A program made the translations under genes and the position numbers. From assembly GCA_930367205.1 (NCBI GenBank), contig OV884009.1, positions 93,331,189 to 93,395,188 of the forward strand: a stretch of 64,000 nt of DNA, written 5' to 3'. The stretch is from Acanthosoma haemorrhoidale (lineage: Eukaryota; Arthropoda; Insecta; Hemiptera; Acanthosomatidae). Under the pieces are notes generated by a model, which had not been told where the DNA came from, did no database searches, and saw nothing but the letters and a program-made list of their open reading frames with translations. This document shows, in pieces, positions 30,997-64,000 of the stretch. Numbering within the stretch: the stretch's first letter is position 1; each line of letters begins with the position of its first letter.

Positions 30997-31490
30997 ATGG
31001 CTAGTTCATATATGAACCTTCCTTTCGGTATAAAGCCATTCGATGGCTCAAATTTTGGTAATTGGGACTTCAGGATAAAATTGCTACTTGAGCAAAACGG
31101 AGTACTTCAAGTTCTAAAAGAGGACCCCCCAACTGGGGAAGCCGAACTCAAGTTGTTTAATCAAGAAGATGTAAAAGCCCGTAACGTTATTGTGCAAGGA
31201 CTTGCCGATAATATATTACCTACAATCAAGGAAAAGAAGACGGCGAAGGGGATAATGGATGCCCTAGCAGTGACTTAAAGCATGGGATGAAATCGCTTGT
31301 CACCGCCCAGAAGGCTTGGAGAAAATTGGAATACAATAATGATCGCCCTCTCCAAGAGTTTTTTCAAGCGTTTGATTCAATGGCTTCGGAGGTGAGAGTG
31401 GCTGGTGGTAATTTAGAAGAGGATGAGGTTGTAAACCAGCTTCTTGTTGCAATGTCGTCCGATTATGATTCTGTGGTATCTGCGATGGAC
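30997..31490 (+). pseudogene. Copia gag, N-terminal part
   Basis: Starts at ATG 30997 (MASSYMNLPFGIKPFDGSNF); the W-x-x-R-I-K-L-L-L-E pattern that follows is typical of Copia gag. A TAA at 31276-31278 interrupts it and sequence is missing there. The other side (31287 on) continues with LEYNNDRPLQEFFQAFDSMA and LLVAMSSDYDSVVSAM. A duplicated block TGTGTTACTACA at about 31495 and 31528 shifts the frame into the next segment. Confidence 0.88.
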
Positions 31491-31495
31491 ATTTT

Positions 31496-32752
31496 GTGTT
31501 ACTACACAAAATACGACCAAGACGGCCTGTGTTACTACAGGACAAGACGGCCGTTACTTTGGAGTATGTGAAAAACACACTTCTGGCCGAATATGAGAGG
31601 AATTTGAAGAAAGAAGATCACCCGTCTGCAAATGTTTTTTCAGCTTATAAAAATAGAGCTAAAAGCTTTAATAAAAATTTGAAGGTCGGTCAAAACAAAA
31701 GTATGTCTAACGTTATTTGTTATTATTGCAAAAATCGAGGTCATTTTAAGAATAATTGTCCTAAACTTAAAAATAAAGGATTTGCCGCCATTTCTAGTGA
31801 TAACAACTGTGAGGAATTTCTGTTTACTACCCAGGATAACAGTAGTGATACCACAACAAATAAGGCAGTAGTATGTAAACAATCGTCTAATGAAGCATGC
31901 TTCGTAGTCGATTCAGGTGGGACATGTCATCTTATAAGGGAAGAGCTCAGTGTTTTTCTAAGAGATTCAACTCCAGTAAATGTTAATTTTAGTGTGGCAA
32001 AGGCAGGTGAATCAGTGGTTGCGTTAAGGAAAGGAAATTTGTTTTGTATGTCAGAAGATGGAAATAAGGTTCGTATAACTAATGCTATTGTGTGCAAAAA
32101 TTTAACAATGAATCTCTTATCTGTTATGAAGTTGGAGGAGAAGGGATGCAGAGTAGTATTTGAAAATTCCTGTGTTAAAATATTTAGGGGATCAAATGTT
32201 ATGACAGGCTATCTCCTTGGCAAACGGTATGTAATTAAACTTCACCTTCTTAAGGAACAAGCAAATGTTGTTGGTGCATGTAACAGTCTAATGCATCGAA
32301 GGATGGGGCATAGTGCATTATATCCTGTTGGAATTTGTGACATTTGTTTAAAGGGGAAGCAAACTAAGTTATCATTCATGAAGAGCAACGAACCTAAGCA
32401 CATCATTGTATCTCCAGAAAAATGCATTCCTGAAGATCAGAGTAAATCTCCCACACCTCAAGACAAATGTAAGTCTCCCATACCTGGACCGAGTGATGTT
32501 ATAGAAGATATTGCAGGTGATTCTGATTCAGAAAGTATTTTCCGTGGTTTTCCTGACGAAACGTCTGGTTATCCCAAGAAAGAACGAAAATCAAAAAGTA
32601 AAAAGGTAAAACCAAAGTATTTGGATGATTTTGTTATTAATTTTGCCTTAAATGAAATGGCTTTGTCCACTAATGCCGAAATAGATGTTCCCAAGACATT
32701 TTCAGATGCGACTACGATCCCGATTGGCAGCAAGCCATTAACGAAGAATTAA
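31496..32752 (+). pseudogene. Copia gag-pol segment: zinc knuckle, protease, integrase stub
   Basis: A long open frame of 418 codons. It contains the CCHC knuckle CYYCKNRGHFKNNC (binds element RNA), then the protease site VVDSGGTCHLI (D-S-G), then the pre-integrase helix LMHRRMGHSAL and CDICLKGKQTKLSF with its C-x-x-C pair. Right after SNEPKHI the frame jumps to a proline/serine-rich linker and PKYLDDFVINFALNEMAL, which normally lies after the integrase. The DDE catalytic core is thus deleted in frame. Confidence 0.92.
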
Positions 32753-33537
32753 CCTCATTAGAAAGTAATAAGACTTGGGAAGAGGTAGATGCTCCGCCGG
32801 ATTTGACCCCCATTGACTGTAAGTGAGTTTTCACCATAAAGACTTCCAACAGTGAATCTAAGAAGAAGGCGCGCTTAGTGGCTAGCGGTTTTCAACAACA
32901 TCTTTATGACGTTGACAACATCTATGCACCGGTTGCCCGTTTCACGACACTTCGAGTACTTCTTTCTACGGCTGCAGAGAAGGATCTATTAATTGATCAG
33001 CTTGATGTTCGGAGTGCGTTTCTTAAAAGTGATCTAAAGGTGCCAGTTTATATAAAGCCACCGGAAGGCTATAAAAGTGCTAAAGTGTTAAAATTGAAAA
33101 AGGCTTTATATGGTCTCAAACAAAGTCCAAAAGTGTGGAATGACCATTTAAATGATAGATTATTGAAATTTGGATTTTGTAGATCTAATGTAGACCCATG
33201 TTTATATTTTGATGACAGTGTTTATATTCTTGTATGGGTTGATGATTTTCTATTAATAGTTAATTCTAAATCTAAATTGGAAAATGTTAAGAAATTATTA
33301 ATGACAGATTTAGAATGTAAAGATTATGATAATAATGGAAATTTAGGGTTGAATATTTTCAGAAATAAACTAGGGAATATTGTAATTAAACAGGAAAATC
33401 TTATTAAGAAAATATTTCATAAGTTTAATATGTCAGATGCTAAATCTAAGCGAATACCTATTGAGCCTAAGCTTAATCTCGAAAAAGGAGATCCGAATAA
33501 TTGTCCTAAGCTACCTTATAAATATGAAGCTTAATGT
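32740..33537 (+). pseudogene. Copia reverse transcriptase
   Basis: Begins in another frame with the family's INEELTSLESNKTWEEV; a TGA near 32824 interrupts it. The main open part (32878-33534) holds KARLVASGF-like entry, YAPVARFTTLRVLLSTAA, QLDVRSAFLKSDL with a catalytic aspartate, KALYGLKQSPKVWN and the active-site motif ILVWVDDFLL (V-D-D). It ends prematurely at 33534 by a frame change into the RNase H part. Confidence 0.92.
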
Positions 33538-34112
33538 ATTTGATGGTCGCTTCTCTACCAGATCTAACTTATGCAATTTCATATTTTGGTATATTTCAAA
33601 ACTGTTTTACTGTAACTCATTGGAAGCACTTGAAAAATGTTGTAAGATACTTGAAACATAGTCCTGACATGGCTCTTAGCTTTGACAAATCTAACTCTAG
33701 TGATGTTCATATAAATGCATATGTTGATGCAGACTTTGCATTTGACAAAAATTACAGAAAAAGTGTATCTGGTTACGTTATCAAGGTAAATAATAATGTT
33801 GTTTCATGGGGATCCAGGAAACAAGGTGTAGTTGCTTCAAGTAGCTGTGAAGCCGAATATTATGCACTAGGTGACTGTATTAAAGAGGTACTATTTTTGA
33901 ACAAATTATTAAATGAGAGTTTTAACTTTAAAGGTAAAATTAATATTTTTGAAGACAACCAGGGCACTATTAAAATTGCAAGTACCTGTGAGACCAAAAG
34001 GTCCAAACATTTTGATGTAAAGTATAATTTCGTAAAAGATATTGTTGATAAAAATATAGTTAAATTGCATTATGTTGATTCTTCTAATCAAATAGCGGAT
34101 TTGAATCCTTAG
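33534..34112 (+). pseudogene. Copia RNase H
   Basis: Open from 33534. It contains HWKHLKNVVRYLKHSPDMAL, AYVDADFAFDKNYRKSVSGY (first catalytic aspartate, S-G-Y), VVASSSCEAEYYALGDC (catalytic glutamate) and KRSKHFDVKYNFVKDIV. The last residues are ADLNP and a stop, where intact elements read A-D-x-x-T-K. It is nearly full length but no longer joined to the reverse transcriptase. Confidence 0.92.
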
Positions 34113-41825: not shown

Positions 41826-41942
41826 TGGTGCCGGAACCCGGGAACCTCGTACGGCGTCGTAGAAAGTAATTGTTTTTTTTCTCTTACTCCCTAAGTTTTT
41901 TTCTTATCGTCTCCTCTCTTTATACGTTTTTTTTATAATAAC

Positions 41943-42900
41943 ATGCCAGAGGGAGTGTTACGACCCGCGGTGCTGAGTGGAGCTGCAGATATACCGCAGT
42001 TGCCTCAAACGACGATGGCAGCGGCTCACGCGACTACATTTGCGTGGATGAAGATTCAGGTGATCACGGCTCAGGATATGAGGAAGTCCATTTCCGATCT
42101 GGAGAGATTAGCGGGTGAGACCGGGGAACTGAATCATTTCCTTAAGGGGGGTGACCGGCTGATGATGTGGATAGAAGGAAAACGGACGGAGGACTTAATA
42201 ACTGAAGGAGATGCCGATTCACTAAGAGCAGCTCTGGTGTGCAGAGTTAAGCGGAGTATTCTGAACATGATCCAGGCTGACGAGGAGACCTCATGGACCA
42301 TAGTGAAGGAGCGGCTGAAGAAAGCATTCAGTGGGGGAAGATAGACCCCAGAAAAGGATATTTTTAAAATGTTCCGGGAGACGAAGAGGCACCGACAAAC
42401 AAACGGGCAGTACGCCGGAACACTGCTGGCTCAATATAATGGCATCACGGAGAAGATGCGGGAGACAGTGAGCGCGGCTGAAGAAGAAGACAGGATGGCG
42501 TTTTTGTCAACAATATTGAAGGTGCAGCTAGCGAATGAGACAGAAAGAAAGGAGGCGTTACCTAGAGAGCACACGCTTCTAGAATGCGCTCAAGAAATGG
42601 TGGACACCAGCGCCAGAGAGGAAATTACAGCTGGCGAGGAAGAAATGGGCTGAAGGAAAGTAGTATATAGAAGGCCCAAAATCACGCCGGTTACATGAAG
42701 GAAGAAGGAAGCGGAGTACGGTGGAATAGAGAGAGCAGCAGTGGGAGAAAGGAGCCGAGGAAACAAGGGACGCCCCCCGGAGAAGGGAAGACAGGAAGTG
42801 TTATGAGTATGGGAAGACAGGACACCTGGTAGCAAAGTGCCCACGCACTAGGTGCTTCGAGTGTGGCACGGAGGGTCATGTAGCAAGACAGTGCCCATAT
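41943..42900 (+). pseudogene. Ty3/gypsy gag
   Basis: ATG at 41943. The open part to 42341 gives a capsid-like sequence (LIQ-poor, with KSISDLERLAGETGELNHFL), a stop follows at 42342, and the next frame (42369-42650) continues it (YNGITEKMRETVSAAEEEDR). Two CCHC knuckles follow at about 42798-42897: the second is CFECGTEGHVARQC, while the first has CYEYGKTGHLVAKC, so its second cysteine is tyrosine. Confidence 0.85.
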
Positions 42901-43139
42901 ATGAGCCCACGCAGAAACGTGAACCGGCCCGAATCAATGGAAATAAATGCTCAGAGAGTGTGGAGAAGGGAAGGCAGCAGTCGGAGGCTACAGAGACTTT
43001 GGAAACCTCCGAAACGGACAACGAAAGGGAAGAACCAGAAAGCGGAGTGGGCTGTGGAAGCGGCAGTGCCCGAAGGAGCGGTCGACGACAGGCGACAGAG
43101 GAGTGGGAAGAACGCGAGATCTGAGAAGAGTGGCAGCGG

Positions 43140-43320
43140 AGAGGCAACCGTAAGTTAATAAATAATAGTGTAAAAGGCGCACATAGCGGTCTGCCTATAA
43201 TTAGAGTCGTGAGTGGAGTGCAGTGCTTAGTGGACACCAGGAGTACCAACACAATAATGTGTCGGGAGACACTAGAGAACATGTGTGGAGGAGGGAGGAT
43301 GCCTCAAATGCAGGTATTTT
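43140..43320 (+). pseudogene. Ty3/gypsy protease with a damaged active site
   Basis: One frame reads GLPIIRVVSGVQCLVDTRST then NTIMCRETLE. Aspartic proteases need D-T-G; here it is D-T-R. The inverted sister fragment at 45670-45885 keeps D-T-G-S-T, so the change is private to this copy. Confidence 0.8.
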
Positions 43321-43699
43321 CTTGCAGCTTGGTCACCCTGGGGGCCCCTACAGGGTTGAAGGGGAAGCGATAATAGGGCTAGAGAGATGTGATCGTAGCA
43401 AGAAGAAATTGCGGGTCCATGTCGTGGAAAAGATGCCCAAGGAATATGGTAGGATCATAGGATGTGATCTGTTAGGGAAAGAGGGAGCGAATATTAGGAA
43501 CAGGGAGGGGCAGTGGGACATTCGCTTTGGTAAGAAAACATATAGGTGGCTGAGAAAAGGGAGGGACGTAGGGAGAGACGGTAGGGCGCCAGTAGGGGCG
43601 ATTAGGCGAGCGGAGGACTGGAGAGTGGAACTCAAGAGAGAATATACGGACATTTTATTTAAGGAAGGGGAGAGATTGGGGGTCACAGGAAAAATGGTA

Positions 43700-44250
43700 C
43701 ACGAGATTCAGCTCAAGCAGGACCAAGTAAGCTACGTGAAGGAGCGCAGATACCCACCAGACTCTGAGACACCATATTAGGGACAACTTAAGGAAACAGG
43801 GGATCATCGAAGATAGCACGTCACCATATAATAGCCCCTTATAGGCTGTTAAGAAAAAGAACACGGAAGGTGGGGTCCCAGATAAGTACAGGGTCGTAGT
43901 AGATTATTGGAGATTCAATGAAAATACGGTGGACGAGAAGTACCCGATTCCCAGGTTCGATGACATTCTGGACAGGCTGAGCGGCGCCAGGATTTTCAGC
44001 ACCCTGGATCTCAAAGCGATCTATCGCCAGATACGAATGAATCCTAGGGACCGACATAAGACAGCCAGAGAGAGGTCACTACGAGTTCACCAGGATGCCA
44101 TTTGGATTGAAAAATGCACCCATCACATTCCAAAGGATGTAAAAGGGATACGGTGGTTGATGGGAACACTGAACTACTACAGGCGAACATTTGCAAGTGC
44201 ATGGGACGACTACAAGAACATCCTGTACTGGCTTTTCCTGATTTCACAAA
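43700..44250 (+). pseudogene. Ty3/gypsy reverse transcriptase, active-site part deleted
   Basis: Frames in this stretch include an entry block ending VKERRYPPDSET, DKYRVVVDYWRFNENTVDEK (family R-x-V-V-D-Y-R-x-L-N), YPIPRFDDILDRLSGARIFS and TLDLKAIYRQI. The next block ends APITFQR and then runs straight into GIRWLMGTLNYYRR, which belongs after the thumb. The Y-x-D-D region between them is missing. Confidence 0.87.
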
Positions 44251-44530
44251 GCAATTCACAATAACGACAGATGCCAGCGAATATGCCTTAGGAGCGGTTC
44301 TGTCACAGGCGGGGGGCACAGGGGACCGTCCAGTAGCGTACGCCAGTAGGCGCCTCACAGAGGCGGAAAGTCGGTATAGCGCGCTGGAACGCGAGTTACT
44401 TGGGATAGTCTGGGCGATCGATCACTTCCGGCCCTATGTGTTCGGGAGAAGGTTCCGGGTGCAAACAGACCACCGACCGCTACAGTGGGTCAGTAAACTG
44501 AAGGAATCGTCAGTGAGGGTCACTCGGTGA
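44245..44530 (+). pseudogene. Ty3/gypsy RNase H
   Basis: The best-kept domain: DFTKQFTITTDASEYALGAV, PVAYASRRLTEAESRYSALE (with the catalytic glutamate), RELLGIVWAIDHFRPYVFGR and VQTDHRPLQWV. It ends in TGA at 44528-44530. Confidence 0.92.
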
Positions 44531-45029
44531 AAAGAGTTCCTCGGTCAATATAACTTGGAGGTTGTATATAAGTCCGGTAAAGAGAACATTGTGGCGGACC
44601 CGGGCGATGACAGTCGACGCACTAGAAGAAGATCAGGGGGAATCATCCAGGAACGTACGGCAGTTCTTGCGGGAATGGACGCCGAAGAGAGAGACGACAA
44701 ACACGAGTCTGCTGAGGAGGAACGGTTGGCAGGAGGAGGGAGCTCGACAGATGACAGGCCTGAGGACATGGAAGAGCGCGAAGAAATCATAAACGATAAG
44801 CGCCGCCAAATAGTCTGGAAGACGAAGACCTTGGACCCCATGAAGATAGCGAGCGGTAGCTATGGAAGATCCACCACCACCACCACCACCATATGGTCTT
44901 CACCAGCGGTGAACAATGACCAAATTTGTCGTGCACTCAAGGATGCTTCCAAACCAGGGAAAACTCACTATTTGTACGTGGGAAACACGACCATTTGGGA
45001 AAAGATTAGGTGACTGTGGCGGACAGAAC

Positions 45030-45670
45030 AGATCGTGGTGGATCGAATATTTGTGCGGTATACCATGTTGGTAGAAACCATCACGGATGAGACAACTCAG
45101 AAGGAGATAACGCTGGCGTACCATCAGGGTAAAACGAATCACCGGGGGGAACACGAGACGGCTCAGGCGTTGAAGCGCAAGTACTTCTGGTGGGAGATGC
45201 GGAACACGATTCAGGAGACGCTAGGGGCATGCGAGGTCTGCCACCGTACGAAATATGATAGGCACCCACCAATAGGCCTACAAGTTGAGACCCCCACGGC
45301 GCAAACACCGCTAACTGACCTTCAAGTGGACACCTTTACCTGGAAGGGACACAAGTGGGTCACGGTGGTTGACCTATTCAGCAAAATGGCCATGGCATAC
45401 CCCGTGCGGGAAAAGTCTTCGGAGGCAGTGGTAGGAGCGCTGAGGAGGTGGTTCCAATTTTATAGAGTCCCCGATCGGATAGCGTCGGACGGCGGGAGGG
45501 AGTTTGATAACGCCGACGTGAGAGAGGAGATGAAAGCTCTGGACGTAATATAGCATGTCAATACCCCAGGGCATCCAAAGAGCAGAGGGGGAGTTGAGCG
45601 TCTTCACAGCACCTTGGGAGATCATCTCCGTGTTTACCATGCCGACAAAGGGTTGGAGCCGGCAGAGGCA
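45030..45670 (+). pseudogene. Ty3/gypsy integrase, 3' truncated
   Basis: The zinc-binding HHCC part is seen as TLAYHQGKTNHRGEH and ACEVCHRTKYD. The catalytic core has LQVDTFTWKGHKWVTVVDLF (first aspartate), RIASDGGREFDN (second) and, after a TAG near 45551, PGHPKSRGGVERLHSTL with the glutamate. Sequence ends after KGLEPAEA at the inversion junction, so the C-terminal DNA-binding part is lost. Confidence 0.9.
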
Positions 45671-46716: not shown

Positions 46717-46903
46717 ATTGTTAACACCTGGTTTTAGAGAGTGGTTTGAGGAACAAATACAAGCATACTTTGATGTCGACGTGATCACGCCTATAACATT
46801 TAAATGTTTAGTAACTTTATTGTTCCTTATGTCGGTTCCAATTTTCGTACTGTGTCATAACACCACAGTGCGAAAAATTTATCCATTTGGTTCCTCACAT
46901 TAG
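46717..46903 (+). CDS. Candidate terminal exon with a membrane helix
   Basis: After the acceptor TGAATTTTCCACAG an open frame (one base completing a codon, then LLTPGFREWFEEQIQAYFD) runs 61 codons to TAG at 46901-46903. It includes a hydrophobic helix TFKCLVTLLFLMSVPIFVLC and a basic tail. No upstream exon is identified. Its last 77 bases overlap the minus-strand exon below. I do not recognise the protein. Confidence 0.3.
46816..46821 (-). terminator. Polyadenylation signal for the minus-strand terminal exon
   Basis: AATAAA on the minus strand lies five bases past the TAA at 46827-46829, which would give a very short 3' UTR. Confidence 0.45.
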
Positions 46904-47255
46904 ATAAGTTGGTCTCAATGTTATTGAGTATCGAACTGATTTCTCCTCCACTTATAGCTTGAATCCGGTTTTCAGACCTTGAAATATACTCATTATTTGG
47001 GTCAAGTTTTCCCAACAAAAGGGATTCCAGATCTTTATTACTTTCCTCCAAAGCTTCACAATATTCGTTGGTAAAATGTCTCACAATGCCTAAACCTTCA
47101 TTTAGACACTTGGTCATGGAAAATGAACTCTGTTCAATATCAGGATCGCTTGAATAATTATAAATAGTCACATCTTCTTCAAAGCGGACACGCTTGTTTT
47201 TGGTTGTATTTTCAAAAACCTCGGGCTTAGGAAATGGTCTTTTTAGTCCTCCGAC
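46827..47255 (-). CDS. Terminal exon of a minus-strand gene, possibly the repeat-exon gene
   Basis: Minus-strand acceptor ATTTTCCAG at 47256-47264, then 142 codons to TAA at 46827-46829. The protein is hydrophilic: it starts VGGLKRPFPKPEVFENTTKN, has KRVRFEEDVTIYNYSS, and a helical heptad-like tail (ISSILNNIETNLSNVRNQMD). The R-V-R-F tetrapeptide fits the PP1-docking pattern, which is common by chance. It is phase 0, like the exon array 2 kb upstream, so it could be spliced to array exons when the array's own terminal exon is skipped. It may equally belong to a separate gene. No family recognised. Confidence 0.5.
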   Translation of the reverse strand, partial: VGGLKRPFPKPEVFENTTKNKRVRFEEDVTIYNYSSDPDIEQSSFSMTKCLNEGLGIVRHFTNEYCEALEESNKDLESLLLGKLDPNNEYISRSENRIQAISGGEISSILNNIETNLSNVRNQMDKFFALWCYDTVRKLEPT

Positions 47256-49325: not shown

Positions 49326-49493
49326 TTAAAGATGACCAGGACCCTGAATCGATTTGAGATTAGCTTTAGACACTTTGTTTAGGACCCCCTTAGTACTGTT
49401 CCCATGTGGTAAATAGGACACCCTAGATACAGGTACATCAAACCCAACAGGTTTGGTTAAATCTAATAAATTACTCGTTTCTGGTTTGGCTTC
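49326..49493 (-). CDS. Terminal exon of the array
   Basis: The leftmost unit reads EAKPETSNLLDLTKPVGFDV and so on to NLKSIQ. Where other units have CAG|GTATAT it has CAGGGTCCTGG, so there is no donor; the frame runs six codons further to TAA at 49326-49328. Its flank (TCATCTTTAATTTG on the minus strand) recurs at about 59764-59778, outside the other end of the array. Confidence 0.7.
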   Translation of the reverse strand, partial: EAKPETSNLLDLTKPVGFDVPVSRVSYLPHGNSTKGVLNKVSKANLKSIQGPGHL

Positions 49494-52400
49494 CTAAGAA
49501 CCATAAAAAAACCAACGTTTAATTGATTTAATATTCGTTGATGGACCTAATGTACAGATATATACAATAATAAAAGACTATGTTCGTTTTTAAATAAATA
49601 TCAAAAATAGTAAATTAACATAATTTTAGAAAAATTACAATATACATCTAAAGTAATAATAATTGAGCTATAGGTGTTGATTCACAGCCAATTAAATGCA
49701 AGAAAAATTGTCATAGTTCTATTAGCATTTAAAATATTACTTTATTATATACCTGAATCGATTTGGGATTAGCTCTAGACACTTTGCTATGGACCTGCTT
49801 AGTACTGTTCCCATGTGGTACATAGGACATTCTAGATACAGGTACATCAAACCCGACTGTTTTGGTTAAATCTACGGTATTTCTTGTTTCTGGTTTGGAT
49901 TCCTAAGAAACATAAATAAACAAAAGTTTAATTGATTTAATATTAGTTGATGACCCTCATGTACAGATGTATACAATAATAAAAGATTTTTTTCTTTTTT
50001 AAATAAATATCAAGTATAGTAAATTAACATCATTTAAAAAAAATTACAATTTCCATCTAAAGTAATTATTGTGCTATAAGTGTTGAATCACACCCAATTA
50101 AATGAGAAAAATATTGTCATAGTTTTATTAGCAATTACAATAATACAGTATTATATACCTGAATCGATTTGTGATTAGCTATAGACTCTTTGCAAAGGAC
50201 CTCCTGAGTACTGTTCCCATGTGGTACATAGGACATTCTAGATACAGGTACATCAAACCCGACTGTTTTGGTTAAATCTACGGTATTTCTTGTTTCTGGT
50301 TTGGATTCCTAAGAAACATAAATAAACAAAAGTTTAATTGATTTAATATTAGTTGATGACCCTCATGTACAGATGTATACAATAATAAAAGATTTTTTTC
50401 TTTTTTAAAAAAATATCAAGTATAGTAAATTAACATCATTTAAAAAAAATTACAATTTCCATCTAAAGTAATTATTGTGCTATAAGTGTTGAATCACACC
50501 CAATTAAATGAGAAAAATATTGTCATAGTTTTATTAGCAATTACAATAATACAGTATTATATACCTGAATCGATTTGTGATTAGCTATAGACTCTTTGCA
50601 AAGGACCTCCTGAGTACTGTTCCCATGTGGTACATAGGACATTCTAGATACAGGTACATCAAACCCGACTGTTTTGGTTAAATCTACGGTATTTCTTGTT
50701 TCTGGTTTGGATTCCTAAGAAACATAAATAAACAAAAGTTTAATTGATTTAATATTAGTTGATGACCCTCATGTACAGATGTATACAATAATAAAAGATT
50801 TTATTCTTTTTTAAATAAATATCAAAAGAAGTAAATTAACATAATTTTAGAAAAATTACAATATACATCTAAAGTAATAATAATTGAGCTATAAGTTTTG
50901 ATGCACACCGAATTAAATGAGAAAAATATTGTCATAGAGTTATTAGCAATTACAATAATACAGTATTATATACCTGAATCGATTTGTGATTAGCTATTGA
51001 CTCTTTGCAAAGGACCTCCTGAGTACTGTTCCCATGTGGTACATAGGACATTCTAGATACAGGTACATCAAACCCGACTGTTTTGGTTAAATCTACGGTA
51101 TTTCTTGTTTCTGGTTTGGATTCCTAAGAAACATAAATAAACAAAAGTTTAATTGATTTAATATTAGTTGATGACCCTCATGTAAAGATGTATACAATAA
51201 TAAAAGATTTTATTCTTTTTAAATAAATATCAAAAGAAGTAAATTAACATTATTTTAGACAAATTACAATATCCATCTAATGTAATTATTGTGCTATAAG
51301 TGTTGAATCACACCCAATTAAATGAGAAAAATATTGTCATAGTTTTATTAGCAATTACAATAATACAGCATTATATACCTGAATCGATTTGTGATTAGCT
51401 ATTGACTCTTTGCAAAGGACCTCCTGAGTTCTGTTCCCATGGGGTACAAAGGACGCCTTAGATACAGGAACATCAAACCCGACTGTTTTGGTTAAATCTA
51501 CGGTATTTCTTGTTTCTGGTTTGGATTCCTAAGAAACATAAATAAACAAAAGTTTAATTGATTTAATATTAGTTGATGACCCTCATGTACAGGTGTATAC
51601 AATAATAAAAGATTATGTTCGTTTTTAAATAAATATCAAAAGAAGTAAATTATTATTATTTTAGGCAAATTACAATATCTATCTAAAGTAATTATTGTGC
51701 TATAAGTGTTGGATCGCACTCAATTAAATGAGGAAAATATTGTCATAATTTTATGAGCAATTATAATATTACTTTATTAAATACCTGAATCGATTTGGGA
51801 TTAGCTCTAGACACTTTGCTATGGACCTGCTTAGTACTGTTCCCATGTGGTACATAGGACATTCTAGATACAGGTACATCAAACCCGACTGTTTTGGTTA
51901 AATCTACGGTATTTCTTGTTTCTGGTTTGGATTCCTAAGAAACATAAATAAACAAAAGTTTAATTGATTTAATATTAGTTGATGACCCTCATGTACAGAT
52001 GTATACAATAATAAAAGATTTTATTCTTTTTTAAATAAATATCAAAAATAGTAAATTAACATAATTTAAGAAAAATTACAATATACATATAAAGTAATAA
52101 TAATTGAGCTATAGGTGTTGATTCACAGCCAATTAAATGCAAGAAAAATTGTCATAGTTCTATTAGCATTTAAAATATTACTTTATTATATACCTGAATC
52201 GATTTGGGATTAGCTCTAGACACTTTGCTATGGACCTGCTTAGTACTGTTCCCATGTGGTACATAGGACATTCTAGATACAGGTACATCAAACCCGACTG
52301 TTTTGGTTAAATCTACGGTATTTCTTGTTTCTGGTTTGGCTTCCTAAGAAAGATAAATAACCAAACGTTTAATTGATTTAATATTAGTTTATAACACTCA

Positions 52401-55400
52401 TGTACAGATATATACAATAATAAAAGATTTTATTCTTTTTTAAATAAATATCAAAAGAAGTAAATTAACATTATTTTAGACAAATTACAATATTCATCTA
52501 ATGTAATTATTGTGCTATAAGTGTTGAATCACACCCAATTAAATGAGAAAAATATTGTCATAGTTTTATTAGCAATTACAATAATACAGCATTATATACC
52601 TGAATCGATTTCTGATTAGCTATTGACTCTTTGCAAAGGACCTCCTGAGTTCTGTTCCCATGGGGTACAAAGGACGCCTTAGATACAGGAACATCAAACC
52701 CAACTGTTTTGGTTAAATCTACGGTATTTCTTGTTTCTGGTTTGGCTTCCTAACAAAGATAAATAACCAAACGTTTAATTGATTTAATATTAGTTTATGA
52801 CACTCATGTACAGATATATACAATAATAAAAGACTATGTTCGTTTTTAGATAAATATCAAAATTAGTAAATTAACATCATTTTGGAAAAATTACAATTTA
52901 TGTCTAAAGTAAAAAAAATTATGCCATAAGTTTTGATGCACACCGAATTAAATGAGAAAAATACTGTCATAGTTTTATTAGCAATTACAATAATACAGTA
53001 TTATATACCTGAATCGATTTGGGATTAGCTCTAGACACTTTGCTATGGACCTGCTTAGTACTGTTCCCATGTGGTACATAGGACATTCTAGATACAGGTA
53101 CATCAAACCCGACTGTTTTGGTTAAATCTATGGTATTTCTTGTTTCTGGTTTGGCTTCCTAAGAAACATAAATAAACAATAGTTTAATTGATTTAATATT
53201 AGTTGATGACCCTCATGTACAGATGTATACAATAATAAAAGATTTTTTTCTTTTTTAAATAAATATCAAGTATAGTAAATTAACATCATTTAAAAAAAAT
53301 TACAATTTCCATCTAAAGTAATTATTGTGCTATAAGTGTTGAATCACACCCAATTAAATGAGAAAAATATTGATATAGTTTTATTAGCATTTATAATATT
53401 ACTTTATTATATACCTGAATTGATTTGGGATTAGCTTTAGACACTTTGAAATGGACCATCTTAGTACTGTTACCATGTGGCCCATAGGACACCCTCAGTA
53501 CTGGTACATTAAACCCTAATATTTTGGTTAAATCTACGGTATTTCTTGTTTCTGGTTTGGATTCCTAAGAAACATAAATAAACAAAAGTTTAATTGATTT
53601 AATATTAGTTGATGACCCTCATGTACAGATGTATACAATAATAAAAGATTTTATTCTTTTTTAAATAAATATCAAAAATAGTAAATTAACATAATTTTAG
53701 AAAAATTACAATATACATCTAAAGTAATAATAATTGAGCTATAGGTGTTGATTCACAGCCAATTAAATGCAAGAAAAATTGTCATAGTTCTATTAGCATT
53801 TAAAATATTACTTTATTATGTACCTGAATCGATTTGGGATTAGCTCTAGACACTTTACTATGGACCTGCTTAGTACTGTTCCCATGTGGTACATAGGACA
53901 TTCTAGATACAGGTACATCAAACCCGACTGTTTTGGTTAAATCTACGGTATTTCTTGTTTCTGGTTTGGATTCCTAAGAAACATAAATAAACGAAAGTTT
54001 AATTGATTTAATATTAGTTGATGACCCTCATGTACAGATGTATACAATAATAAAAGATTTTATTCTTTTTTAAATAAATATCAAAAGAAGTAAATTAACA
54101 TAATTTTAGAAAAATTACAATATACATCTAAAGTAATAATAATTGAGCTATAGGTTTTGATGCACACCGAATTAAATGAGAAAAATATTGTCATAGAGTT
54201 ATTAGCAATTACAATAATACAGTATTATATACCTGAATCGATTTGTGATTAGCTATTGACTCTTTGCAAAGGACCTCCTGAGTACTGTTCCCATGTGGTA
54301 CATAGGACATTCTAGATACAGGTACATCAAACCCGACTGTTTTGGTTAAATCTACGGTATTTCTTGTTTCTGGTTTGGATTCCTAAGAAACATAAATAAA
54401 CAAAAGTTTAATTGATTTAATATTAGTTGATGACCCTCATGTAAAGATGTATACAATAATAAAAGATTTTATTCTTTTTAAATAAATATCAAAAGAAGTA
54501 AATTAACATTATTTTAGACAAATTACAATATCCATCTAATGTAATTATTGTGCTATAAGTGTTGAATCACACCCAATTAAATGAGAAAAATATTGTCATA
54601 GTTTTATTAGCAATTACAATAATACAGCATTATATACCTGAATCGATTTGTGATTAGCTATTGACTCTTTGCAAAGGACCTCCTGAGTTCTGTTCCCATG
54701 GGGTACAAAGGACGCCTTAGATACAGGAACATCAAACCCGACTGTTTTGGTTAAATCTACGGTATTTCTTGTTTCTGGTTTGGATTCCTAAGAAACATAA
54801 ATAAACAAAAGTTTAATTGATTTAATATTAGTTGATGACCCTCATGTACAGGTGTATACAATAATAAAAGATTATGTTCGTTTTTAAATAAATATCAAAA
54901 GAAGTAAATTATTATTATTTTAGGCAAATTACAATATCTATCTAAAGTAATTATTGTGCTATAAGTGTTGGATCGCACTCAAATAAATGAGGAAAATATT
55001 GTCATAATTTTATGAGCAATTATAATATTACTTTATTAAATACCTGAATCGATTTGGGATTAGCTCTAGACACTTTGCTATGGACCTGCTTAGTACTGTT
55101 CCCATGTGGTACATAGGACATTCTAGATACAGGTACATCAAACCCGACTGTTTTGGTTAAATCTACGGTATTTCTTGTTTCTGGTTTGGATTCCTAAGAA
55201 ACATAAATAAACAAAAGTTTAATTGATTTAATATTAGTTGATGACCCTCAAGTACAGATGTATACAATAATAAAAGATTTTATTCTTTTTTAAATAAATA
55301 TCAAAAATAGTAAATTAACATAATTTTAGAAAAATTACAATATACATCTAAAGTAATAATAATTGAGCTATAGGTGTTGATTCACAGCCAATTAAATGCA

Positions 55401-58400
55401 AGAAAAATTGTCATAGTTCTATTAGCATTTAAAATATTACTTTATTATATACCTGAATCGATTTGGGATTAGCTCTAGACACTTTGCTATGGACCTGCTT
55501 AGTACTGTTCCCATGTGGTACATAGGACATTCTAGATACAGGTACATCAAACCCGACTGTTTTGGTTAAATCTACGGTATTTCTTGTTTCTGGTTTGGCT
55601 TCCTAAGAAAGATAAATAACCAAACGTTTAATTGATTTAATATTAGTTGATGACCCTCATGTACAGGTGTATACAATAATAAAAGATTATGTTCGTTTTT
55701 AAATAAATATCAAAAGAAGTAAATTATTATTATTTTAGGCAAATTACAATATCTATCTAAAGTAATTATTGTGCTATAAGTGTTGGATCGCACTCAATTA
55801 AATGAGGAAAATATTGTCATAGTTTTATGAGCAATTATAATATTACTTTATTAAATACCTGAATCGATTTGGGATTAGCTCTAGACACTTTGCTATGGAC
55901 CTGCTTAGTACTGTTCCCATGTGGTACATAGGACATTCTAGATACAGGTACATCAAACCCGACTGTTTTGGTTAAATCTACGGTATTTCTTGTTTCTGGT
56001 TTGGATTCCTAAGAAACATAAATAAACAAAAGTTTAATTGATTTAATATTAGTTGATGACCCTCATGTACAGGTGTATACAATAATAAAAGATTATGTTC
56101 GTTTTTAAATAAATATCAAAAGAAGTAAATTATTATTATTTTAGGCAAATTACAATATCTATCTAAAGTAATTATTGTGCTATAAGTGTTGGATCGCACT
56201 CAATTAAATGAGGAAAATATTGTCATAGTTTTATGAGCAATTATAATATTACTTTATTAAATACCTGAATCGATTTGGGATTAGCTCTAGACACTTTGCT
56301 ATGGACCTGCTTAGTACTGTTCCCATGTGGTACATAGGACATTCTAGATACAGGTACATCAAACCCGACTGTTTTGGTTAAATCTACGGTATTTCTTGTT
56401 TCTGGTTTGGATTCCTAAGAAACATAAATAAACAAAAGTTTAATTGATTTAATATTAGTTGATGACCCTCAAGTACAGATGTATACAATAATAAAAGATT
56501 TTATTCTTTTTTAAATAAATATCAAAAATAGTAAATTAACATAATTTTAGAAAAATTACAATATACATCTAAAGTAATAATAATTGAGCTATAGGTGTTG
56601 ATTCACAGCCAATTAAATGCAAGAAAAAATGTCATAGTTCTATTAGCATTTAAAATATTACTTTATTATATACCTGAATCGATTTGGGATTAGCTCTAGA
56701 CACTTTGCTATGGACCTGCTTAGTACTGTTCCCATGTGGTACATAGGACATTCTAGATACAGGTACATCAAACCCGACTGTTTTGGTTAAATCTACGGTA
56801 TTTCTTGTTTCTGGTTTGGCTTCCTAAGAAAGATAAATAACCAAACGTTTAATTGATTTAATATTAGTTTATAACACTCATGTACAGATATATACAATAA
56901 TAAAAGATTTTATTCTTTTTTAAATAAATATCAAAAGAAGTAAATTAACATTATTTTAGACAAATTACAATATTCATCTAATGTAATTATTGTGCTATAA
57001 GTGTTGAATCACACCCAATTAAATGAGAAAAATATTGTCATAGTTTTATTAGCAATTACAATAATACAGTATTATATACCTGAATCGATTTCTGATTAGC
57101 TATTGACTCTTTGCAAAGGACCTCATGAGTTCTGTTCCCATGGGGTACAAAGGACGCCTTAGATACAGGAACATCAAACCCGACTGTTTTGGTTAAATCT
57201 ACGGTATTTCTTGTTTCTGGTTTGGCTTCCTAAGAAAGATAAATAACCAAACGTTTAATTGATTTAATATTAGTTTATGACACTCCTGTACAGATATATA
57301 CAATAATAAAAGATTTTATTCTTTTTTAAATAAATATCAAAAGAAGTAAATTAACATTATTTTGGAAAAATTACAATTTATGTCTAAAGTAAAAAAAATT
57401 ATGCCATAAGTTTTGATGCACACCGAATTAAATGAGAAAAATATTGTCATAGTTTTATTAGCAATTACAATAATACAGTATTATATACCTGAATCGATTT
57501 GGGATTAGCTCTAGACACTTTGCTATGGACCTGCTTAGTACTGTTCCCATGTGGTACATAGGACATTCTAGATACAGGTACATCAAACCCGACTGTTTTG
57601 GTTAAATCTATGGTATTTCTTGTTTCTGGTTTGGATTCCTAAGAAACATAAATAAACAAAAGTTTAATTGATTTAATATTAGTTGATGACCCTCATGTAC
57701 AGATGTATACAATAATAAAAGATTTTTTTCTTTTTTAAATAAATATCAAGTATAGTAAATTAACATCATTTAAAAAAAATTACAATTTCCATCTTAAGTA
57801 ATTATTGTGCTATAAGTGTTGAATCACACCCAATTAAATGAGAAAAATATTGTCATAGTTTTATTAGCAATTACAATAATACAGCATTATATACCTGAAT
57901 CGATTTGTGATTAGCTATTGACTCTTTGCAAAGGACCTCCTGAGTTCTGTTCCCATGGGGTACAAAGGACGCCTTAGATACAGGAACATCAAACCCGACT
58001 GTTTTGGTTAAATCTACGGTATTTCTTGTTTCTGGTTTGGCTTCCTAAGAAAGATAAATAACCAAACGTTTAATTGATTTAATATTAGTTGATGACCCTC
58101 ATGTACAGGTGTATACAATAATAAAAGATTATGTTCGTTTTTAAATAAATATCAAAAGAAGTAAATTATTATTATTTTAGGCAAATTACAATATCTATCT
58201 AAAGTAATTATTGTGCTATAAGTGTTGGATCGCACTCAATTAAATGAGGAAAATATTGTCATAGTTTTATGAGCAATTATAATATTACTTTATTAAATAC
58301 CTGAATCGATTTGGGATTAGCTCTAGACACTTTGCTATGGACCTGCTTAGTACTGTTCCCATGTGGTACATAGGACATTCTAGATACAGGTACATCAAAC

Positions 58401-59262
58401 CCGACTGTTTTGGTTAAATCTACGGTATTTCTTGTTTCTGGTTTGGATTCCTAAGAAACATAAATAAACAAAAGTTTAATTGATTTAATATTAGTTGATG
58501 ACCCTCATGTACAGGTGTATACAATAATAAAAGATTATGTTCGTTTTTAAATAAATATCAAAAGAAGTAAATTATTATTATTTTAGGCAAATTACAATAT
58601 CTATCTAAAGTAATTATTGTGCTATAAGTGTTGGATCGCACTCAATTAAATGAGGAAAATATTGTCATAGTTTTATGAGCAATTATAATATTACTTTATT
58701 AAATACCTGAATCGATTTGGGATTAGCTCTAGACACTTTGCTATGGACCTGCTTAGTACTGTTCCCATGTGGTACATAGGACATTCTAGATACAGGTACA
58801 TCAAACCCGACTGTTTTGGTTAAATCTACGGTATTTCTTGTTTCTGGTTTGGATTCCTAAGAAACATAAATAAACAAAAGTTTAATTGATTTAATATTAG
58901 TTGATGACCCTCATGTACAGGTGTATACAATAATAAAAGATTATGTTCGTTTTTAAATAAATATCAAAAGAAGTAAATTATTATTATTTTAGGCAAATTA
59001 CAATATCTATCTAAAGTAATTATTGTGCTATAAGTGTTGAATCACACCCAATTAAATGAGAAAAATATTGTCATAGTTTTATTAGCAATTACAATAATAC
59101 AGCATTATATACCTGAATCGATTTGTGATTAGCTATTGACTCTTTGCAAAGGACCTCCTGAGTTCTGTTCCCATGGGGTACAAAGGACGCCTTAGATACA
59201 GGAACATCAAACCCGACTGTTTGGGTTAAATCTACGGAATTAGGGGTTTCTGGTTTGGTTTC
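49326..59262 (-). CDS. Repeat-exon gene: 25 tandem 50-codon exons, 5' partial
   Basis: Minus-strand exons, right to left: 59113-59262, 58707-58856, 58301-58450, 57895-58044, 57489-57638, 57080-57229, 56674-56823, 56265-56414, 55859-56008, 55453-55602, 55044-55193, 54638-54787, 54233-54382, 53824-53973, 53415-53564, 53009-53158, 52600-52749, 52194-52343, 51785-51934, 51379-51528, 50974-51123, 50565-50714, 50159-50308, 49753-49902, and terminal 49326-49493. Each full exon is 150 bp with TTAG before and GT after, phase 0 on both sides. A typical unit reads ESKPETRNTVDLTKTVGFDV, PVSRMSYVPHGNSTKQVHSK and VSRANPKSIQ. No copy has a stop or indel in this frame. The last exon lacks the donor, adds GPGHL and stops. 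The repeat is hydrophilic, with no signal or membrane segment. The N-terminal exon(s) lie right of 59262 or outside the window. The function is unknown; splicing of all copies is inferred, not shown. Confidence 0.72.
49344..59262 (-). repeat. Tandem array of 405-409 bp exon-plus-intron units
   Basis: Twenty-five exon starts are spaced 405, 406 or 409 bp apart. The whole length difference lies in the introns (255-259 bp). Sequence classes by the exon's second half: class A (KQVHSKVSRANPKSIQ) in 13 units, class B (QEVLCKESIANHKSIQ after SRMSYVPHGNST) in four (50159, 50565, 50974, 54233), class C (SKASFVPHGNRT with the B-type tail) in six (51379, 52600, 54638, 57080, 57895, 59113), one divergent unit at 53415, and the terminal unit. 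Diagnostic intron variants show block copies: units 50974-52343 match 54233-55602, and units 52194-53158 match 56674-57638. Confidence 0.95.
53415..53564 (-). CDS. Most divergent internal exon of the array
   Basis: It keeps the 150-bp length, both splice sites and the open frame but reads ILGFNVPVLRVSYGPHGNST then KMVHFKVSKANPKSIQ, with about ten replacements against class A. Divergence with the frame preserved argues for protein-level constraint in the array. Confidence 0.7.
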
Positions 59263-59925
59263 CTAAAAAACGTAAATAAACAAAATTTTAATTGATTTAA
59301 TATTAGTCGATGACCCTCATAAACTATTTTTCTTAGGACACTTTGGGAATACTCAATTTTTTTTGTGGAGGTAGCTCAATACATATAGCAAAAGGTCAAG
59401 CCTTCTTGCTCTCTTTTAGCCGTTAGGAATGAATTTAGTTAGAATGTCAATGATTTAGTAGTGTTGAGGTCTGTCTGGGGTCGCAGGTATGTGGAACAGC
59501 CGCATTTTGAGCATACATATTAAAGATGAAGCTTTTACATCAACCGACAATGCAGAATAGTTATGTTATTCAGGCATGTATTAATGTTATACTCAATCAT
59601 AATTGTGAAACATTTAAAAAGTAAACTCATGTATAAACTAAGAATTATTTCTATTTTTAGAATAAACTGTTATCCATTACATAGTCTTTTGTTCCTCGCC
59701 TCTTAATAAACAAAATATTTATAAAAATAACTGAATAGTAGGAACCATGACAGAGCATTCACAAGGTCAAATTAAAGATGATCAGGTATGTAAATCGAAA
59801 TGTTTTTTGCTTTAGCCTCTTAAGTAATGTTGAAACAAATTAAACACGGTAAAATACCAGTACCCCCAAGAAAAATAATTAAAGAAAACTTTAGCTGATT
59901 TAATATTAGATGATGACTGTCATAA
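59263..59925. other. Right flank of the array
   Basis: Array-intron similarity continues to about 59320 and then breaks. A sequence at 59757-59785 matches the flank of the terminal exon (AAATTAAAGATGA). I found no clear first exon for the repeat gene here. Confidence 0.4.
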
Positions 59926-60367
59926 ACAGATATACATATGCAAAAATTAACTTACAATGCTATAATAAAAGATTAATTTCACTTTTCAATTAATATCACA
60001 AATAGTTTATTAGAAAAATTAAAATTTCTATCTAAAGCATTAATAATTGTAATATAAGTGTTGATTCTCACTCAATAATTATAAAAGGAAGAAAAATGTT
60101 GTCATAGTTTTGTTAGTTATGATAATCTTGTTAACAGAAAGAGCCCGATTTGGAAGTTACAGATATGCACTAATTTATTCAATAAATTATATAACAAAGT
60201 TTGTACATATAAGTTCTTCTGAAAAGTGATTCATTCTTAAATTAAATGGTATGAATGAATGAATAAATTTTTAACTGGGACATTAGTCACCAGAGGATAT
60301 CAAAAATAAGATGCATAATACAACTAAAGGTTTTGTTTAGAGTGGGTAAATGTTTTCAATGACTTTT
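59926..60367 (-). repeat. Diverged array-type repeat, copy 1
   Basis: Contains the intron landmarks of the array in order (ATAATAAAAGATT, AATATCACAAATAGT, ATCTAAAGCATTAATAATTG, ATATAAGTGTTGATTC, TTGTCATAGTTTTGTTAG) but no 150-bp exon. It then carries an extra segment with AAATTAAATGGTATGAATGA and AACTGGGACATTAGTC that the array lacks. Confidence 0.75.
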
Positions 60368-61734: not shown

Positions 61735-62215
61735 GCTGCATCATAATTGTGCGTAATTTGGTAGTTATAGATATGCCCTTATTCATTAAATAAGTCACAT
61801 AAAAAAGTTCACGCATATAAGTCCATTTGACAAGCAATCCATTCTTAAATTAAATGGTATGAATAAATTTTTAACTGGGGCATTAGCCCCCTTAGAATAA
61901 CAAAAATAAGATGCATAACACAATTAAAGGTTTCGTTTAGCTTGTGCAAACGTTTTCAATGACTTTTTATATTAATTATAAACTAAATCACAAACACTTT
62001 TAATATAATTAATCAGGTGCAGACAAGTTAAATTGGATAATCTACTTACATATTATTATACTTACAATTTCCATCTAAAGTATTAATAATTGTGGTATAA
62101 GTGTTGATTCACACTCAATTAATATCAAATGAAGAAAAATGTTGTTATAGTTAGTAATAATAATCTCATTAACTTAGATAGCCCGATTTGTTAGTTACAG
62201 ATCAGGTGCAGAGAT
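61735..62215 (-). repeat. Diverged array-type repeat, copy 2 (rearranged)
   Basis: The extra segment (AAATTAAATGGTATGAATAA, AACTGGGGCATTAGCC at about 61850-61890) comes first here, and the intron-like part (ATCTAAAGTATTAATAATTG, GTATAAGTGTTGATTCACAC) follows at 62060-62210, so the order differs from copies 1 and 3. Confidence 0.7.
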
Positions 62216-63379: not shown

Positions 63380-64000
63380 CACAATTTAATATAAGATGAT
63401 GACCCTTCTATACAGACATATGCAAAAATTAACGAATAATGGCATAATAAAAGATTGTTTTCCCTTTTTAATTAATATCACAGATAGTTTATTAACAGCT
63501 TCAATAGAAAAATTACAATTTCCATCGAAAGTTTTAATGATTCTGGTATAAGTGTTGGCTCACACACAATTAACATGAAATGATGAAAAATATGATCATG
63601 GTTTTGTCAGCAATTATATTCTTGTTAAAATAAAAAGCCAGATTTGCTATTTACTGATTTACACTAATTCATTCAATAAACCATATAACAAAGTTTATAC
63701 ACATATAACTCCATCTGACAAGCGATCCATAAATGGTATGAATGAATAAATAAAAATCTAACTGGGACATTAGTCCTAGAGTATGACAATGTATTTAGTT
63801 TTAAAATATTTAGTGCATTGAGTGGAATTACATCCCTCACATACTTACGCTTACATTTTCTGGTTGGAGAATATTCATTTTACAAATCACAAGAGATTGA
63901 TTAATAATGGACCGGTTATTGATATCCATTAGCCTGTATTTAGTTTTAGGATATTTAGGGCATTGAGTGAAATTCTATTTCAAAGTAAAATACATCTGCG
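63380..64000 (-). repeat. Diverged array-type repeat, copy 3, running to the window edge
   Basis: Shows the same intron landmarks (TAAGATGATGACCCTTC, CATAATAAAAGATTG, AATATCACAGATAGT, GGTATAAGTGTTGGCTCACAC) followed by the extra segment AAATGGTATGAATGAATAAA and AACTGGGACATTAGTCC. No exon is present where one would be expected, because the BEL/Pao relic occupies that side. Confidence 0.75.

Follow-up and report, generated by a model that had tools for sequence, protein, structure and literature searches.

An array of 25 symmetric predicted exons in Acanthosoma haemorrhoidale, probably coding for the repeats of an ADD-only ATRX-like protein

In a stretch of 64,000 nucleotides from the hemipteran Acanthosoma haemorrhoidale (assembly GCA_930367205.1, contig OV884009.1, here C6; positions C6:93331189-93395188, hereafter the window), 25 predicted exons of 150 bp follow one another in tandem on the minus strand. 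We conclude that this array probably encodes the central repeats of an ATRX-like histone reader of the ADD-only type, whose gene stands in five tandem copies with 17–25 open symmetric exons each. Three exons encoding an ATRX-type ADD domain precede the array in every copy, and no complete repeat unit contains a stop codon. The genome searched comprised 865.6 Mb in 72 contigs. Positions without the prefix C6 count from the first letter of the window.

Results

The exon array in the window

The array and its two end exons were located as follows.

49344..59262, minus strand: the whole array, with 25 predicted exons of 150 bp in phase 0, each coding for a 50-residue unit, with introns of 255-259 bp
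59113..59262, minus strand: first exon of the array, ETKPETPNSVDLTQTVGFDVPVSKASF...KSIQ, with AG before it and GT after it
49344..49493, minus strand: last exon of the array (unit 25), with no GT donor at its border, where GGTCCTGG comes next

The initial annotation had described 25 units 405-409 bp apart, each with an open 150-bp phase-0 exon, AG in 25 and GT in 24, and our re-count gave the same figures. The unit spacing was 405, 406 or 409 bp and the introns measured 255, 256 or 259 bp. None of the 25 exons contained a stop, all of them were preceded by an AG acceptor, and 24 were followed by a GT donor. The program TRF recovered the same array (49343-59320, period 406, 91% matches), and 14 distinct DNA versions were found among the 25 exons. 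From unit 25 the frame stays open to 49329, ending in ...KSIQGPGHL before a stop; the ending was identical in all five arrays described below, and unit 25 is possibly an alternative last exon.

All exons of the array are symmetric, with phase 0 at both borders, and therefore any number of them can be skipped without a frame change, as had been proposed. The 135-bp exons upstream and the candidate 3' exon (both described below) share this frame. Exon length, frame and splice borders were kept in 113 of 113 complete units, and the G+C content over all five arrays was 40.8% in exons versus 20.8% in introns; the array is not a blank satellite. Three relics, similar to the intron part of the unit, were detected with nhmmer next to the array.

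59867..60126, minus strand: degenerate intron-like unit relic with no AG at the acceptor place (E 1.6e-26)
62060..62152, minus strand: partial intron-like unit relic (E 8.3e-13)
63384..63620, minus strand: degenerate intron-like unit relic (E 2e-28)

Five tandem copies and a distant locus

Searched with the unit, the genome showed five minus-strand arrays on C6, whose last units are 81.9, 81.5, 81.5 and 78.9 kb apart. Copies 1-5, of which copy 1 carries the array of the window, contained 25, 25, 24, 17 and 22 complete units, respectively, and all 113 were open. The splice borders enclosed 150 bp in each unit, AG was present in all, and GT was lacking only at the unit that ends each array. The scan tolerated substitutions only, and the spacing shows that it passed over only one broken unit each in copies 2, 4 and 5. 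These broken units start normally, and the unit sequence is gone after about 24 residues. The unit numbers are those of the assembly, in which an error in unit number is possible.

About 26 Mb away, at C6:119.98 Mb (within 119940001-119990000), a distant locus on the plus strand holds four complete units and pieces. Long matching blocks between this locus and the cluster were 94-98% identical, and a few blocks 69-78%. The distant locus has the appearance of a short-array counterpart of the cluster in opposite orientation, with open ADD exons and a 3' exon that contains a stop.

The flanks of copies 1, 2 and 5 were 99.5-99.9% identical in long blocks, but their arrays differed in unit number and order, and thus turnover seems to be faster within the arrays than around them. 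A four-unit higher-order period was observed, most clearly in copies 2, 4 and 5, and mosaic units were present. This pattern suggests that unequal exchange or gene conversion among the units changed their number and order. Near-identical exon-intron units thus stand in tandem in the same frame at 17-25 per copy within one genome, which is the arrangement of a coding variable number tandem repeat (VNTR).

ADD exons upstream of the array and the gene model

A frame-by-frame comparison of the cluster with the distant locus revealed exons that resemble zinc-finger coding sequence; they lie on the same strand as the array, 11-17 kb upstream of it and outside the window.

C6:93407764-93407882, minus strand: ADD exon A of copy 1, 119 bp
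C6:93403863-93403991, minus strand: ADD exon B of copy 1, 129 bp
C6:93401278-93401418, minus strand: ADD exon C of copy 1, 141 bp

The joined exons matched the Pfam family ADD_ATRX at 44.6 bits (cut-off 25.7), and exon A by itself reached 29.6 bits. Against the ATRX ADD structure 3ql9, the joined exons aligned over residues 11-122 with an E value of 6.7e-26. ADD domains of the ATRX type combine a GATA-like finger with an imperfect PHD and have paired cysteines, and the cysteine pairs of the cluster ADD domain aligned with those of eight relatives. All three exons were present in five of the five copies, on the same strand and in the same order, and also at the distant locus. Several rows of the exon search flagged one stop; in exon B of copy 1, the TAA sits in the preceding intron. 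Direct reading of the exons in copies 1 and 5, and likewise at the distant locus, showed them to be open.

Three further predicted exons belong to the model of copy 1.

C6:93399806-93399940, minus strand: 135-bp phase-0 predicted exon, between exon C and the array
C6:93395460-93395594, minus strand: 135-bp phase-0 predicted exon, between exon C and the array
46827..47255, minus strand: candidate 3'-terminal exon with the phase-0 acceptor TTTTCCAG, 142 codons and a stop

The 135-bp exons show a weak likeness to the unit and are preceded by the same intron end. The candidate 3' exon was open in copies 1, 3 and 5. When the exons of copy 1 were spliced in silico without unit 25, with an assumed initial base for the first codon, all borders were compatible and the result was a single frame of 1,562 residues; a version ending at unit 25 had 1,475 residues. 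We infer from this arrangement that the ADD exons and the array exons would form one transcript. No helicase was found among the exons read here, and no search aimed at SNF2 was made at any locus.

The C-terminus encoded by the 3' exon was weakly similar to that of an ADD gene on contig C4 and of the ADD relatives (both see below), with a BLASTP E value of 0.002, a score that 7 of 1000 shuffles reached. The comparison by hhalign gave an E value of 0.00055 at a probability of 30%. We tentatively regard this end as similar to the end of ADD-only proteins. The 3' exon also matched haemagglutinins (E 0.13 and above), which was put down to chance, and a search of a set of 5.8 billion proteins with this exon gave 14 candidates, none at an E value up to 10.

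Change at the H3K9me3 contact of the ADD domain

To the position of ATRX Tyr203, which we placed by the ATRX numbering on the alignment with the ATRX structure, corresponds an alanine in the cluster (read in copies 1 and 5) and a cysteine at the distant locus, versus a phenylalanine in the C4 gene and in eight of eight relatives. Neither the cluster nor the distant locus thus has the tyrosine of the contact to trimethylated lysine 9 of histone H3 (H3K9me3). The exon search scores of copies 2-4 were equal to those of copies 1 and 5. Excerpted passages describe Tyr203 as the sole aromatic residue coordinating the trimethyl group (PMC7764450) and the Y203A mutation of ATRX as weakening H3K9me3 binding (PMC12900691). 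The amplified ADD form would presumably read H3K9me3 less well.

Relatives of the ADD domain

At C4:18834216-18838366, all three ADD exons were found with 41-64% identity to those of the cluster, and this locus is probably an unamplified ADD gene. A long open frame (18838697-18839383) follows its ADD exons, and the 10 kb read there gave no unit match above noise in its plus-strand frames. A weak ADD-like match was also observed at C3:36560092-36560337 (41% over query residues 8-83, E 7e-9, one open frame).

A search of the protein set by ADD words gave 28 candidates, among which eight relatives of 360-1,048 residues had E values up to 0.01. The named ones are all hemipteran: Rhynocoris fuscipes, Cimex lectularius, Nesidiocoris tenuis, Nezara viridula, Homalodisca liturata and Graphocephala atropunctata. 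The unit profile matched none of the eight (best E 0.32 at 0.2 bits). The searches of this set with the 3' exon and with a four-unit protein (see below) cover only lengths between 0.55-1.75 times that of the query, and a long annotated relative of the array could escape them. In a tree of 11 ADD domains, the inner support was weak and the long cluster branch joined another long branch, and the tree was not used to date the split. The reading that we favour is a probable insect paralogue of the ADD-only (ADD1-like) kind, with an array of predicted coding exons.

The 50-residue unit

The unit contains elements that were invariant in all 113 copies, among others KPET, DLT, GF, VPV, GN and KSIQ. 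In a three-unit test protein, no Pfam family scored above its cut-off, and AlaE, ATP-synt_10 and LytTR, which remained below theirs, were taken as chance. For a four-unit protein, no relative was found among 383 candidates of the 5.8-billion-protein set. The initial annotation had stated that no described family with this unit is known. This is right for the unit itself, with neither a Pfam family nor a relative, but not for the likely gene, which has the ATRX-type ADD domain.

A structural model of the unit, built from 12 of the 25 window exons, predicts a beta-hairpin (19-30/33-44, block means 87 and 90) behind a loose first half; its mean predicted local distance difference test score was 69.2 (56-62 in four other models) and its predicted template modelling score 0.33. 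The loose half carries the invariant DLT, and the changes among units concentrate in the predicted hairpin half.

A [VIL][DE]LT core was present in 113 of 113 units, most commonly as VDLT. The same tetrapeptide is given as the core of the second and third SUMO-interacting motifs (SIMs) of RNF4, which stand in tandem, in an excerpt of PMC3901395. Most units lack, as compared with RNF4, a hydrophobic residue before VDL, and canonical SIM patterns were found in only 18 and 13 of the 113 units, too few for a SIM repeat, which makes SUMO binding a lead and not a result. With low confidence, a SUMO-type interaction through the VDLT core may be named as the first candidate for the ligand. Two other candidates were rejected. 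KNL1/Spc105 MELT repeats had been suggested by the sequence VDLTKT, but M[DE][LIV]T occurred in none of the 113 units, and it was the ADD domain that emerged. The patterns of an HP1 chromoshadow ligand, PxVx[LMV] or LxVxL, likewise occurred in none of them.

Constraint on the exons

Over the 113 exons, 74 variant alleles were counted, comprising 48 nonsynonymous and 26 synonymous alleles and no stop, versus 59, 19 and 4, respectively, expected at the intron rate. The probability of no stop was 0.023, and that of so few nonsynonymous alleles was 0.019. Introns diverged by about 11% between units, and the alignment of 105 introns contained five gap classes; complete exons showed no length change.

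The ratio of nonsynonymous to synonymous substitution rates (dN/dS) was 0.49 (0.19-1.55) for codons 1-23 and 0.93 (0.44-2.33) for codons 24-46. A comparison of the two main unit types gave 12 nonsynonymous and 3 synonymous changes for codons 24-46; for codons 1-23 the counts were 0 and 1, respectively. Between the cluster and the distant locus, the dN/dS of the unit was 0.78, and the ADD exons showed 10 synonymous changes per 78 sites and 16 nonsynonymous changes per 309 sites, with the zinc-site cysteines kept. These counts suggest that the ADD exons and the open frame of the array have been preserved, with weak constraint at best on the letters of the repeat.

Other features of the window

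The remaining features of the window are listed below.

4931-5458, plus strand: one frame with weak matches, below cut-off, to the Tc3-type transposase helix-turn-helix
6193-6528, plus strand: YIF1 frame (Pfam 68.5 bits, cut-off 27.6), part of a conserved cellular gene at the left window end
31212-34112, plus strand: Copia-type element frames, with RVT_2 (155.9 bits) at 32827-33531 and a zinc knuckle in the preceding frame
41895-45553, plus strand: G+C island of 51% versus a background of roughly 30%, with one frame matching an integrase with an H2C2 zinc site

The integrase match with its H2C2 zinc site makes the G+C island probably a long terminal repeat element. Near-identical frames were observed at the matching place before array 2.

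Discussion

The likely product of the gene would be a chromatin protein with a fast-changing number of 50-residue repeats. In the mechanism that we propose, the ADD domain would dock the protein on chromatin, probably with an altered reading of H3K9me3 through its changed pocket, and the repeats behind it would form a multivalent binding arm of 17-25 units, whose valency would be set by the number of exons. This number would shift by exchange between near-identical units, and such exchange would keep the frame intact because each exon is symmetric. A more far-reaching version, which we regard as speculative and rather improbable, is that the reader lost its usual H3K9me3 contact and was amplified fivefold, with the exon array as a dial for SUMO-binding-like and variable beta-hairpin repeats, and that the fast turnover comes from germline chromatin conflict. 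Chromatin readers are usually regarded as fixed modules; here one is amplified, its mark-contact residue is changed, and the adjoining exon array varies from 17 to 25. If expressed, the copies would amount to a natural series of one chromatin protein with different repeat numbers, and they would allow a look at the splicing of 25 near-identical exons in one pre-mRNA.

Several observations weigh against the assignment of the array to an ADD gene. The first coding exon, with the N-terminus, was not found for the gene model, the array lies about 11 kb from the ADD exons, and the last unit has no donor at its border. Copies 2, 4 and 5 hold one broken unit each, three in total, and the candidate 3' exon is interrupted by a stop in two of the five copies (2 and 4) as well as at the distant locus. 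Relative to the distant locus, this exon shows 5 synonymous and 14 nonsynonymous changes, which look neutral, and a 135-bp exon shows none and 4, respectively. From its stops and neutral-looking changes, the 3' exon may be dispensable or wrongly predicted. The intactness of the compared copies does not count as independent evidence, because the copies are so alike. Within the repeat, the initial annotation had proposed dN/dS as a check, with a value near 1 and stops in other individuals as the opposing outcome. The pooled value was 0.75 with a codon-bootstrap range of 0.44-1.43 (45 distinct exons), which is not separable from 1, so that this check was not clearly passed, yet stops were found in 0 of 113 complete units. 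Allele density was also alike in exon and intron (74 in 150 bp versus 128 in 257 bp), and together with the dN/dS value this indicates that constraint on the repeat is weak.

Some of these observations would fit a young, decaying pseudogene cluster, in which the array is a 406-bp satellite made of exon plus intron and the frames are open since the amplification is recent. The dN/dS value and the equally dense alleles, the stop in the 3' exon at three of the loci, the broken units and the degenerate relics adjoining the array are all of the kind expected from decay. However, introns about 11% apart mean that many mutations have been sampled, yet no stop occurred where about 4 such alleles were expected, no complete unit carries an indel while the introns fall into five gap classes, and the ADD exons persist in all five copies and are open in those read directly and at the distant locus. 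We consider decay unlikely, though deserving to be taken seriously. It is less probable that the array belongs to a gene of its own that happens to occupy the interval from the ADD exons to the following copy. In favour of this, the N-terminal exon was not found, and a methionine in a 135-bp exon could start a protein of its own; on the other side, strand and order are the same in five of five copies, the borders of copy 1 are phase-0 compatible, and the 3' exon tentatively ends like an ADD-only protein. Least probable, in our view, is the use of the array as alternative exons, with one or few units per transcript by mutually exclusive or combinatorial splicing. Any subset of symmetric exons would remain in frame, and the two main types differ by their 12 nonsynonymous changes in codons 24-46, but many exons within an array are identical in DNA (14 distinct versions among 25), and a choice among these would be pointless.

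We thus retain the ADD-only ATRX-like gene with a repeat-coding middle as the probable reading, and its parts can be compared with known systems. The kringle IV type 2 units of human LPA have two exons each and code for part of a secreted protein, and nebulin and the PEVK region of titin have many symmetric exons in a row that can be skipped in frame. All of these proteins are unrelated to the one predicted here. The exons of nebulin and titin are older and more diverged, and, as compared with LPA, the unit here is of 406 bp with one exon and the array stands in five neighbouring copies. The LPA units form a coding VNTR of tandem coding units, as described in an excerpt of PMC11462820.

Closer to the predicted protein are the ADD-only ATRX-like proteins of insects, in which, according to a part of PMC4249797, ATRX underwent fission into separate ADD and helicase genes; dADD1 is named as a partner of HP1a in a passage of PMC10671109. 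These proteins, such as dADD1/CG8290 of Drosophila and the 'transcriptional regulator ATRX-like' of Cimex lectularius (443 aa), likewise have a complete ATRX-type ADD domain, their C-terminus is tentatively like that of the 3' exon, and among the exons read here there is no helicase, none having been searched for. The differences are the five tandem copies with a distant one, and the 50-residue repeat, which occurs in none of the eight relatives. Among the matches listed from the open-licence literature, there was no ADD gene with an exon array. Tandem coding units, as in LPA kringle IV type 2, and ADD-only proteins are each already known, and what would be new, as far as the listed matches go, is such an exon array in an ADD gene, as the predicted exons would have it.

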